Below, piece by piece: positions 5,263 to 7,652 of a stretch of 45,321 bases of DNA. Origin of the DNA: an uncultured Oscillospiraceae bacterium (lineage in GTDB: Bacteria; Bacillota; Clostridia; Oscillospirales; Oscillospiraceae); contig CALWYB010000016.1 in assembly GCA_944385665.1 (NCBI GenBank), forward strand, positions 1 to 45,321, in the 5' to 3' direction. The notes under the pieces were generated by a model that was not told where the DNA came from, did no database searches, and was given only the letters and a program-made list of their open reading frames with translations. Numbering within the stretch: the first letter of the stretch is position 1; the number at the start of each line of letters is the position of its first letter. A program made the position numbers and the translations under genes.

Positions 5263-5291
5263 TTGAAATCCGAACAATCCCTCGGTATAAT
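5263..5291 (+). promoter_or_regulatory. Strong sigma-A promoter of the small gene-MATE unit
   Basis: TTGAAA (5263-5268), a 17-base spacer and TATAAT (5286-5291). The predicted start of transcription (about 5298) falls right at the base of the leader hairpin, so the RNA begins with that structure. Confidence 0.8.
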
Positions 5292-5299
5292 AAAAATAC

Positions 5300-5354
5300 A
5301 ACGTGTAGCTTTGATCGGCGTAAATCCGGTTGAACGCTGCACGTTTTTCTTTTT
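5300..5354 (+). promoter_or_regulatory. Leader RNA hairpin, copy 1 (candidate riboswitch/attenuator)
   Basis: A 10-pair outer stem (5300-5309 with 5336-5345, one G-U) encloses a smaller stem around CGGCGTAAATCC and is followed at once by TTTTTCTTTTT, so it can act as an intrinsic terminator. The same motif recurs at 5626-5676: GTGTAGC, then CGGCRTAAATCC, then GCTGCAC, while the outer stem base pairs differ yet still pair. Conserved loop plus changing stem indicates a selected RNA. Compact size and position before a MepA-type MATE exporter recall the guanidine-IV (mepA) riboswitch; that identity is an inference. Confidence 0.6.
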
Positions 5355-5374
5355 GATTGAATAGGAGGATCATT

Positions 5375-5614
5375 ATGAAACGGATCAAAGCCGCATGTCT
5401 TTGTCAAACCCTGCTTTTCCTGCAAAAAGACGACGTGGATCCAAAGCAGGCCGCACAGGCCTCGCAGGAAGAGGTAGCTCATTACAAGCAGCAGCTGGAG
5501 CGTAGTCACATCCAGTACAAGATTCTCTCGGAGGACCCTCAGCCGGACGGCTCCATCCTGGTGAAGGTCATCAAGCAGTACAACAGCACTCCGGTAGGGG
5601 ATTATTTCGCATAA
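5375..5614 (+). CDS. Small conserved-looking protein of unknown function
   Basis: A 79-residue soluble protein beginning MKRIKAACLCQTLLFLQKDD and ending in a basic and polar stretch with VKVIKQYNSTPVGDY. The ATG at 5375 has AGGAGG six bases upstream; an upstream in-frame TTG at 5357 overlaps that site and is rejected. No family is recognised with certainty, and there is no signal peptide, membrane segment or metal motif apart from two cysteines. It sits between two copies of the same leader hairpin and shares a promoter with the MATE exporter, so it may serve the same response. Confidence 0.7.
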   Translation: MKRIKAACLCQTLLFLQKDDVDPKQAAQASQEEVAHYKQQLERSHIQYKILSEDPQPDGSILVKVIKQYNSTPVGDYFA

Positions 5615-5625
5615 TAGAAGCAATC

Positions 5626-5676
5626 AAAGCGTGTAGCCCACGGCATAAATCCAGCTTGGCTGCACGCTTTTTCTTT
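5626..5676 (+). promoter_or_regulatory. Leader RNA hairpin, copy 2 (candidate riboswitch/attenuator)
   Basis: A 13-pair stem (5626-5638 with 5658-5670, one G-U) encloses CGGCATAAATCC and is followed by TTTTTCTTTT; the T-run ends just before the MATE ribosome site. It shares GTGTAGC, CGGCRTAAATCC and GCTGCAC with the copy at 5300. No convincing separate promoter is seen here, so transcripts probably pass two gates in series. Confidence 0.6.
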
Positions 5677-5690
5677 TGGAGGGATTCAAA

Positions 5691-7082
5691 ATGGGTCAGA
5701 AATCAAACGCTTTTCTGGAGACGGAGCCGGTGGGAAAGCTCATGGGCAAATACGCCGTTCCCTGCATCATCTCCCTGCTGGTGGCAGCACTGTATAACAT
5801 CGTCGACCAGATCTTCATTGCCAACGCCACCTATCTGGGCTCTTACGGCAATGCGGCCAACACAGTGGTCTTTCCTCTGACGGTAGTGGCTCTCGCCATC
5901 GCCGTACTGATCGGTGACGGCTGCTGTGCCTTTGTAAGCATCTGCCTGGGGGCAAACCAGAAGGAAAACGCCCACCGGAGCATCGGAAACGCCATTGTGC
6001 TTTGCCTGATCGCCAGTCTTCTGCTCACCGCCGTCTACCTGATTTTCCAGGAGCCCATCCTCACTATGTTTGGCGGACGTGTCAATGAGGAAACGTTTCA
6101 GCGCTCAAAGGAATACTTTTTCTATATCACCCTGGGCGTGCCTTTTTATATGTTCGGTCAGGCTATGAACCCCATCATCCGTTCCGACGGAAGCCCCAAA
6201 TTTGCCATGGCCTCCACTCTGGCCGGTGCGGTGGTCAATATCATTCTGGACCCGGTCTTTATCTTCGGCTGTAAATGGGGGATGATGGGCGCGGCGGTGG
6301 CCACCGTGCTGGGGCAGATCCTCACCGCGATTCTCGCCATCTGGTACCTGTGCCACATGCGGGCGGTCTCCCTATCCAGAGACAGCTTCCGCCTGCGCAG
6401 ATCTCTCATGGGAAAATTCATCTCTCTGGGCCTGTGCAGCCTGCTCTCCCAGATTTCTCTGGTGGCCGCTATGGCTGCTATCAACAATATGATTCGGCAG
6501 TATGGCGCACTGGACCCCATCTTCGGTCAGGCTCAATATGCACAGATCCCCATGGCGGTGGTTGGCATTGTGATGAAATTCTTCCAGATCGTCATCTCCA
6601 TCGCCGTGGGCATGGCCGCAGGCTGCATCCCCATCGTGGGCTTTAACATCGGCGCAGGGCGAAAGGACCGGGCCAAGAGTCTGTTTACCCTTCTGCTTCT
6701 TGCCGAGGCCGCCGTAGGCGCAGTAGCTCTGGTCATTGTAGAGTGCTTCCCGGTCCAGCTGATCTCCATCTTCGGTGCAGCCAATGAGAGCGCCTATTAC
6801 ACGTCCTTTGCCATCAAGTCCTTCCGGATCTACCTGTGCATGATGATCCTGGCCTGCGTCGACAAGGGCACCTTCATCTATCTCCAGTCTCTGGGTAAGG
6901 CGCTGGCCTCCACGGTACTGTCTACCGTGCGTGAAGTGGTCTTCGGCGTGGGCTTTGCCCTGCTGCTGCCCGTTTTCTTCGGTCTGGACGGCGTGCTCTA
7001 CTCCATGCCGGTATCCGATGTTTTGACCTTCCTGATCGCTGTGCTGATGATCCGCTCCACTTATCAATCTCTAGCGGCGTGA
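5691..7082 (+). CDS. MATE-family (MepA-type) efflux transporter
   Basis: A 463-residue polytopic protein with about 12 hydrophobic segments and MATE hallmarks: VPCIISLLVAALYNIVDQIF near the N terminus and a matching second half. MATE proteins exchange Na+ or H+ for cationic drugs or metabolites across the cytoplasmic membrane. The ATG at 5691 is preferred to an in-frame TTG at 5676 because GGAGGG lies seven bases upstream of it. It directly follows leader hairpin copy 2, so expression is probably controlled at the RNA level. Its 3' end overlaps the convergent exonuclease gene by 12 bases. The substrate cannot be read from sequence. Confidence 0.9.
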   Translation: MGQKSNAFLETEPVGKLMGKYAVPCIISLLVAALYNIVDQIFIANATYLGSYGNAANTVVFPLTVVALAIAVLIGDGCCAFVSICLGANQKENAHRSIGNAIVLCLIASLLLTAVYLIFQEPILTMFGGRVNEETFQRSKEYFFYITLGVPFYMFGQAMNPIIRSDGSPKFAMASTLAGAVVNIILDPVFIFGCKWGMMGAAVATVLGQILTAILAIWYLCHMRAVSLSRDSFRLRRSLMGKFISLGLCSLLSQISLVAAMAAINNMIRQYGALDPIFGQAQYAQIPMAVVGIVMKFFQIVISIAVGMAAGCIPIVGFNIGAGRKDRAKSLFTLLLLAEAAVGAVALVIVECFPVQLISIFGAANESAYYTSFAIKSFRIYLCMMILACVDKGTFIYLQSLGKALASTVLSTVREVVFGVGFALLLPVFFGLDGVLYSMPVSDVLTFLIAVLMIRSTYQSLAA

Positions 7083-7652
7083 CCCAAAGCGTGCCGGACC
7101 GGCGGCCCGGATCTGAAGCAGGTCGTAGGTACGGATAAAGTGACCTATGTCCGCGCCGGAGCGCAGGTGATGCAGGAGGATCTCCCCGCAGGCCAGGCTG
7201 TCGCTGCCCGCCCGGTGGTGGTCCAGCTCCAGGTCCAGAAAATCGCACAGGGTATTCAGCTTATGGTTGGGCAGCTGGGGCAGCAGGCGGCGGCTCATCT
7301 GACAGGTACAGGCATAGTGGACCTGAGGCCGCCAGATGATCCCGTAGTCCCGCAGGCACTTGGCCAGCACCGACAGGTCAAAGGGGGCGTTGTGGGCCAC
7401 CAGCAAGCCGCTGTCAAACAGGGGCTCCAGCTCCTGCCAGAGCTGAGGAAAGGTGGGCTTGTCCGCCACCATCTCCGGGGTAATCCCGGTGAGGGCCACA
7501 TTGAAAGGGGCAAAGCGAGTCTCGGGATTGACCAGCCAGTCGTGTTGCTCCACCACTTCTCCCCCCTCCACCACGGTAACGCCCATGGCGCTGATGCGGT
7601 CATTGGCATAGTTGGGGGTCTCCACGTCAAAGGCGATGTATCGTCCCGTCAT
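7071..7652 (-). CDS. DnaQ-like DEDDh 3'-5' exonuclease
   Basis: A 193-residue stand-alone exonuclease domain. Exo I is FDVETP with D9 and E11, Exo II is AHNAPFD, and Exo III is HRAGSDSLA, where His and Asp complete the DEDDh set. It resembles the epsilon proofreading subunit and related exonucleases that trim DNA or RNA 3' ends using two metal ions. It carries no UvrC or polymerase domain. AGAAGGA precedes the ATG. It overlaps the end of the convergent MATE gene and lies 38 bases after the YqfO-like gene on the same strand, so the two may be co-transcribed. Confidence 0.87.
   Translation of the reverse strand: MTGRYIAFDVETPNYANDRISAMGVTVVEGGEVVEQHDWLVNPETRFAPFNVALTGITPEMVADKPTFPQLWQELEPLFDSGLLVAHNAPFDLSVLAKCLRDYGIIWRPQVHYACTCQMSRRLLPQLPNHKLNTLCDFLDLELDHHRAGSDSLACGEILLHHLRSGADIGHFIRTYDLLQIRAAGPARFGSRR

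Follow-up and report, generated by a model that had tools for sequence, protein, structure and literature searches.

The described RNA that comes closest in logic to the element studied here is the HMP-PP riboswitch (thiS motif). In the accessible portions of its report (PMC6478431), the aptamer is likewise embedded in a terminator with which its P1 competes, the terminator tip is conserved, and the RNA is OFF when ligand free and ON when ligand bound; its targets are thiamin genes and it has a predicted pseudoknot, whereas our element precedes efflux and CarD-like genes and its model needs no pseudoknot. Two further RNAs, guanidine-IV (GGAM-1, mepA motif) and the Gd4v motif, have MATE genes as targets (PMC9788692 and PMC8632094, accessible portions) and consist, as far as the corresponding portions of PMC9788692 and PMC7736828 describe them, of two hairpins joined by a pseudoknot. 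Guanidine-IV shares with our element a terminator expression platform, a predicted ON direction and the MATE target, but its commonest target is sugE and it has two pseudoknotted hairpins where we find one element that begins at the promoter (PMC7736828, in part). Gd4v is likewise an orphan, enriched in gut bacteria, terminator based and found before MATE genes, and is set apart, by its description, through the two-hairpin pseudoknot and its transaminase and GNAT targets (PMC9788692, in part). The HRC-8-4 motif, which the accessible text of PMC8632094 groups with guanidine-IV, resembles our element in its description: it is a proposed ON switch built on a terminator with conserved tip nucleotides, and a regulator protein gene is sometimes inserted alongside, but it belongs to cytochrome oxidase operons of Rhodobacterales. 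Finally, the yjdF (azaaromatic) riboswitch is an earlier example of an RNA responding to a wide range of aromatic compounds, likened here by its description, and it occurs almost only with yjdF genes (PMC4793209, in part).

We analyzed two elements in a window of 45,321 nt, the whole stretch of DNA under study, from an uncultured Oscillospiraceae bacterium. They belong to an RNA class that is real, widespread and unclassified in the sources searched. The computed features of the class are its recurrence, a covarying stem P1, nucleotides common to aptamer and terminator, an abutting promoter and a linkage to efflux genes. That the class is real and also adopts the P1/P2 fold, ligand sensing apart, we hold to be highly likely. 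It is probable that both elements are copies of a terminator-embedded ON riboswitch candidate of about 36 nt that senses a ligand and has no match in Rfam 15.

Two Copies of One Element in a Predicted Transcript

Both elements lie on the forward strand, copy 1 at 5297–5354 and copy 2 at 5625–5677, and each contains one copy of GTGTAGC (5303–5309 and 5631–5637), CGGCRTAAATCC (5316–5327 and 5641–5652) and GCTGCAC (5336–5342 and 5659–5665). The common layout is GTGTAGC, a variable loop, GCRTAAATCC, a strand pairing back to GTGTAGC, and a U-run. The original prediction had rightly listed the shared blocks but set the hairpins 326 bases apart; the copy starts are separated by 328 nt. Its other observations hold: the outer stems of the copies differ in sequence and length while both fold as strong hairpins (–23.5 and –24.0 kcal/mol, with z of –5.4 and –5.9 against dinucleotide shuffles), and a T-run ends each of them (U-runs 5344–5354 and 5668–5677). 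The pattern GTGTRGC-N3..10-GCRTAANTCCRG was present at two places in the window and absent from all 100 shuffles. The middle block alone, allowing up to two mismatches, was found four times in the window against an expectation of 5.8, which is not significant.

A promoter is predicted at 5263–5291 (forward strand), with –35 TTGAAA at 5263–5268, a 17-nt spacer and –10 TATAAT at 5286–5291. From this position the +1 is expected at about 5297–5299, at the foot of the first element, as had been proposed. Among relatives, 184 of 260 elements had a –10/–35-like pair upstream; 20 mononucleotide shuffles gave a mean of 73.5 and a maximum of 81. The commonest –10 spacing (94 of the 184) was 5 nt before the element, the same as in the window. 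With a promoter pair at such a fixed short distance, many transcripts should begin at the aptamer. The two copies lie in one predicted transcript and, again as proposed, are positioned to gate a 79-amino-acid (79-aa) protein gene between them (ORF call, 5375–5614, forward) and, as the most distal gated gene, a MATE-family efflux transporter gene (5691–7082, forward; Pfam MatE E 2.1e-31, TIGR00797 above cut-off). The 3′ end of the MATE gene overlaps a convergent exonuclease-like gene (7071–7652, reverse strand) by 12 bases, 7071–7082.

Recurrence and Covariation of the Core

Searches of other genomes used two models, both with rough E-values. R1, built from 18 sequences and structured as the terminator hairpin with an octaloop, retrieved members well, but its inner pair 20–33 failed in 6 of the 18 rows and the structure was therefore replaced by P1 and P2, giving the aptamer model R2 of about 36 nt. 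R1 matched in 117 of 300 family genomes at E ≤ 0.01, 56 of these at E ≤ 1e-6; its weak tail includes ordinary terminators, such as L102 (E 1.7e-5), which lacks the core, and matches above about E 1e-5 are not trusted. R2 matched in 59 of 391 genomes of the window's class (E ≤ 1e-3), spanning 25 family labels, and in 12 of 299 phylum genomes. Ten loci from the phylum search were read, nine of them outside the class; two look false (L294, L295) and one has no clear gene (L290). An exact-pattern scan of named genomes returned at least 118 stretches, and carriers among the matches listed are Ruminococcus bromii, R. flavefaciens, Faecalicatena contorta, Blautia metagenome-assembled genomes (MAGs), Oscillibacter valericigenes, Pseudoflavonifractor phocaeensis and two Spirochaetales MAGs.

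The conserved parts of the motif fit a stem P1 around GNGYNG-Y-loop-R-CRUAANUCCR, with a P2 of 2 bp, a structure that accounts for the conservation better than the terminator hairpin does. Its parts are, in order, positions a1–a6, GNGYNGY, a loop whose length in the family set is 4 to 9 bases, RCRUAANUCCR, and e1–e6; P1 pairs a3–a6 with e4–e1, and P2 pairs the GY with the RC dinucleotide. In copy 1 the aptamer (5297–5334, forward; R2 match of 42.7 bits, and covariation) forms P1 between 5299–5302 and 5329–5332, for which covariation is the evidence, and P2 between 5308–5309 and 5318–5319, with GUGUAGC (5303–5309) and GCGUAAAUCCG (5318–5328) as its conserved segments. In copy 2 the aptamer (5625–5659, forward; R2 match of 38.6 bits, covariation and the nascent fold) has its likewise covarying P1 at 5627–5630 with 5654–5657, P2 at 5636–5637 with 5643–5644, and the conserved segments GUGUAGC (5631–5637) and GCAUAAAUCCA (5643–5653).

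Pairing in P1 was evaluated on two sets with shuffle tests that ignore relatedness among the aptamers. In the named-genome pattern set, the 118 aptamers among the matches listed, only a6 and e1 were fixed by the pattern, which makes it the cleaner of the two tests. There a5–e2 paired in all 118 with five pair types (shuffle mean 87.9, maximum 98) and a3–e4 in 76 (mean 57.0, maximum 74); a4–e3 paired in 102, which is not significant (mean 98.5, maximum 104), and neither a2–e5 nor a1–e6 stood out from the shuffles. The second set, A2, comprises 86 distinct family aptamers collected with a regular expression that places no condition on P1, although R1, with a weak pair 20–33 that touches e1, had supplied the majority of the loci. 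In A2, a5–e2 paired in 83 of 86 (AU 34, GC 31, GU 12, UA 6; shuffle mean 60.3), a6–e1 in all 86 (CG 74, UG 10, UA 2; mean 84.3) and a3–e4 in 64 (mean 38.6); a4–e3 was not above shuffles (73 vs. 70.5 of 86), and a1 and a2 were unpaired. When the partners were slid by one to three columns, the paired cells in A2 fell from 92.6% to at most 47.1%.

Eleven core positions were invariant in all 86 aptamers of A2. One P2 position was C–G in 83 and U–A in 3, and the other was G–C throughout, never varying. Single-letter counts would permit an extension of P2 past a bulge (R–U in 81 of 86, U–A in 66 of 86), where the 3′ letters are invariant. A GAAA loop closes P2 in two members (L031, L079), and P1 pairs such as UGUU/AACA are seen in members outside the class (L296, L297). 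Together, the conserved 5′ strand and loop make up an internal loop of aptamer type, which the covarying stem P1 closes. In isolation the aptamer fold is weak, –1.4 to –4.0 kcal/mol, and four isolated aptamers folded no better than their shuffles (z 0.19 to 1.33).

The original prediction had described a conserved loop with compensating stems and staked itself on covariation and on recurrence of the motif upstream of homologous genes. Both were found: P1 covaries, and the motif recurs before homologous genes in other genomes. The RNA is thus selected and covarying as claimed, but the description fits the terminator state and overlooked the second structure formed by the conserved pieces, which excludes the hairpin.

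Predicted Aptamer and Terminator Folds Share a Strand

The terminators of the window, for which the fold energies above and the folds of nascent RNA are the evidence, lie at 5300–5354 (copy 1) and 5626–5677 (copy 2) on the forward strand. In copy 1 the stem pairs 5300–5309 with 5336–5345 and is continued by an inner stem, and the P1 5′ strand and GUGUAGC are common to terminator and aptamer; in copy 2 the stem pairs 5626–5638 with 5658–5670. More generally, the usual terminator also uses the P1 5′ strand and GUGURGC as its own 5′ strand, which makes the two folds mutually exclusive. Among 262 distinct elements, the predicted terminator pairs with one half of the motif, to the exclusion of the aptamer, in 244 according to the predicted folds; in 224 of these it takes up the 5′ half, and in the other 20 the 3′ half (e.g., L056, L066). 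Eleven elements have no U-run and seven no assigned design, the latter including folds truncated at an internal U-run (e.g., the second copy of L058). That a single unchanged core goes with two terminator designs would be difficult to account for if the core were not a functional unit of its own.

We also followed the predicted folds of the nascent RNA. For copy 2, the minimum-energy fold at 33–36 nt is P1 with the P2 hairpin, and the terminator overtakes the aptamer from 37 nt; for copy 1, the prediction favors a competing inner stem. The exclusion of the aptamer by the terminator, together with the fold order of copy 2, predicts an ON switch. From these features we infer a small-molecule ligand, the ON direction and serial gating. 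Transcription would begin at the aptamer, and in the absence of ligand the growing RNA would zip into an intrinsic terminator made from the aptamer's own strands, so that RNA polymerase would halt at the U-run, about 50 nt from the +1. A small molecule held in the conserved P1–P2 internal loop would make the P1 strand unavailable to the terminator and allow read-through. Both the 79-aa protein and the MATE exporter would be under the first switch, and the exporter would be gated again by the second; as the MATE gene would need two read-throughs, leak should fall and the response steepen.

Genes Downstream of the Element

Downstream genes were studied on a set of 264 elements, which required a P2 pair and at least two of three inner P1 pairs and on which P1 covariation was not counted. 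A downstream ORF was called for 251 elements and not for 13. The 251 ORFs, some of them called in a wrong frame, formed clusters whose sizes count aptamers and not species: 187 MATE, 17 CarD-like, 13 of the 79-aa protein and a remainder of small clusters. One of the other clusters holds eight putatively DUF2798-like membrane proteins; its tested member (L072) had no match in Pfam. For the representatives tested, Pfam backs the CarD-like, MFS, ABC and rubrerythrin assignments, one of the two CarD-like representatives lying just below the cut-off. The element is thus found in cis before the unrelated MATE, CarD-like, MFS, ABC and rubrerythrin families.

Starting from the transporter, 25 close MATE matches were found in 20 of 61 family genomes, and 17 of them had an R2 match upstream (E ≤ 0.05), 13 at E < 1e-4; one of the 17 (L318) precedes a truncated MATE gene. 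For full-length matches of at least 70% identity, 14 of 15 carried an R2 element upstream. The eight close matches without an upstream R2 match include the window genome's own second MATE gene (45% identity).

We found 56 same-strand pairs of elements within 900 nt, 29 of them spaced at 61–133 nt and 16 at 318–352 nt. The longer spacing contains the 79-aa gene in seven family loci read by eye, and at several 79-aa loci an element stands on both sides of the gene, with stems that differ. The recurrent 318–352 nt spacing with the 79-aa gene inside argues that the arrangement in the window, an exporter behind two predicted switches, is a recurrent design.

Single loci show further arrangements. 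One (L268, G544:C65) has three copies in about 5 kb, before genes that look CarD-like, ABC-transporter-like and MATE by eye. In L035 and L036, a rubrerythrin gene follows the promoter-proximal aptamer and is itself followed by a MATE gene in L035 and by a second aptamer and a MATE gene in L036. Elsewhere aptamers precede genes for predicted secreted proteins (L119, L281, L283), presumably resembling copper-amine-oxidase-N stalk proteins.

Alternative Explanations

The element shows three general features of riboswitches: a conserved covarying structure, a cis position before unrelated gene families and, in the predicted folds, an exclusive expression platform. The reading that best fits the RNA class is that of an orphan ON riboswitch answering to a compound exported by these bacteria. 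The chief alternative, which we consider unlikely though deserving of attention, is that no small molecule is involved and the internal loop is bound by an RNA-binding protein acting in trans, which would block or permit termination like known protein antiterminators. A small hairpin with a conserved loop is typical of a protein site, and the presence of the 79-aa gene between the copies at several loci provides a candidate. The accessible portions of PMC11109978 and PMC8632094 raise the same caveat for their own candidates.

The distribution of the 79-aa protein argues against such a role. Homologues occur in 38 of 300 family genomes, and in the same genomes, of which drafts may hide some copies, 36 of the 56 with a strong RNA match (R1 E ≤ 1e-6) have no homologue and 18 of the 38 with the protein have no strong RNA match. 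This co-occurrence rules out the 79-aa protein as a general regulator of the RNA, and we regard it as an optional operon member. No other linked regulator recurs, and the CarD-like genes are themselves targets. The protein had no match at a useful E-value in Pfam, NCBIfam or PHROGs, and a sequence search of the PDB gave nothing credible. Its predicted model (5375–5611) is a strand–helix–strand–strand fold with a mean pLDDT of 85.5, and a fold search with it returned nothing at E ≤ 0.001. Weak resemblances below significance involved an archaeal RNA ligase (E 0.013) and, lower in the ranking, release factor 2 and PrfH, both with E of about 0.5. The leaders of some homologues bear other hairpins without the conserved core (L005, L006, L010, L015), and other homologues adjoin genes that look CarD-like by eye, with no recognized aptamer nearby (L019, L020, L022, L025).

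Returning to a riboswitch reading, the class raised in the original prediction, guanidine-IV, was not supported. It is very improbable that the element is a divergent guanidine-IV or Gd4v riboswitch missed by Rfam, although both of these also have a terminator with conserved tip nucleotides and MATE targets (PMC9788692 and PMC8632094, accessible portions). Those classes need a two-hairpin pseudoknot, whereas each element here is single, and with the –10 box 5 nt before copy 1 and a stop codon (5612–5614) about 10 nt before copy 2, a 5′ hairpin could fit only within promoter or coding DNA. Their main other targets were not recognized among the downstream clusters, neither transaminase and GNAT genes nor, among the 251 ORFs with clusters read by eye, sugE; when sugE loci were scanned, four of five carried guanidine-I. 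The elements of the window had no Rfam 15 match at the gathering score, in a set that may lack a guanidine-IV model, and nothing credible up to E 10, the matches in that range being implausible (SR6 antitoxin, bantam and mir-5856 microRNAs, HIV RRE). At 12 and then 20 further loci, three of the 12 without a recognized core, Rfam 15 likewise returned nothing at the gathering score for the element; among the 20, the only matches were a SAM riboswitch and a tRNA, away from the element (L186, L207). As for the HMP-PP class, no thiamin gene was recognized among the downstream clusters and there was no Rfam match to the thiS motif, a model that the set may lack. We found no account of the motif in open-licence full text, with supplementary files and subscription papers outside this scope, including the accessible portions of PMC11109978, PMC8632094 and PMC6429828.

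An equally improbable reading takes the elements for sensorless repeats or for conserved intrinsic terminators of the ordinary kind: most copies are good intrinsic terminators, but the loop sequence of an ordinary terminator is not expected to be conserved across families, the P1 covariation and the two terminator designs around one core would be left unexplained, and in a specificity control the strict pattern occurred in 9 of 196 class genomes and its reversed form in none.

If the orphan riboswitch reading is right, a riboswitch class extends across 25 family labels of one bacterial class and yet has no match in Rfam 15. Our guess at the kind of putative ligand is a toxic compound handled by MATE, MFS and ABC pumps. 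With exporters of gut bacteria as its targets, such a class has a ligand that would reveal which substances these commensals handle as toxic and would suggest a substrate for this MATE clade. For fluoride and guanidine, the discovery of riboswitch ligands revealed unknown resistance genes (PMC6429828, in part). A fuller reading, which we put forward tentatively and consider somewhat more likely to fail than to hold, is that an unusually small, unclassified riboswitch class directly senses a toxic compound and, with one core and two interchangeable terminator designs across gut Clostridia, controls MATE, MFS and ABC exporters, CarD-like regulators and stress genes, forming in the window a serial double gate around an optional small protein.

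One sub-type of the element has G–U/A–C in P2 (ACGUAAGUCC or similar; L028, L088, L100, L113, L115, L127, L128, L279, L287). The gene that follows it is CarD-like in most cases and UvrA-like in one (L113), and the sub-type is possibly a variant with its own ligand. The window's own genome carries a third copy of the element with this P2 variant (L267, G000:C62:1378–1414, reverse strand), directly before a gene that looks CarD-like by eye.
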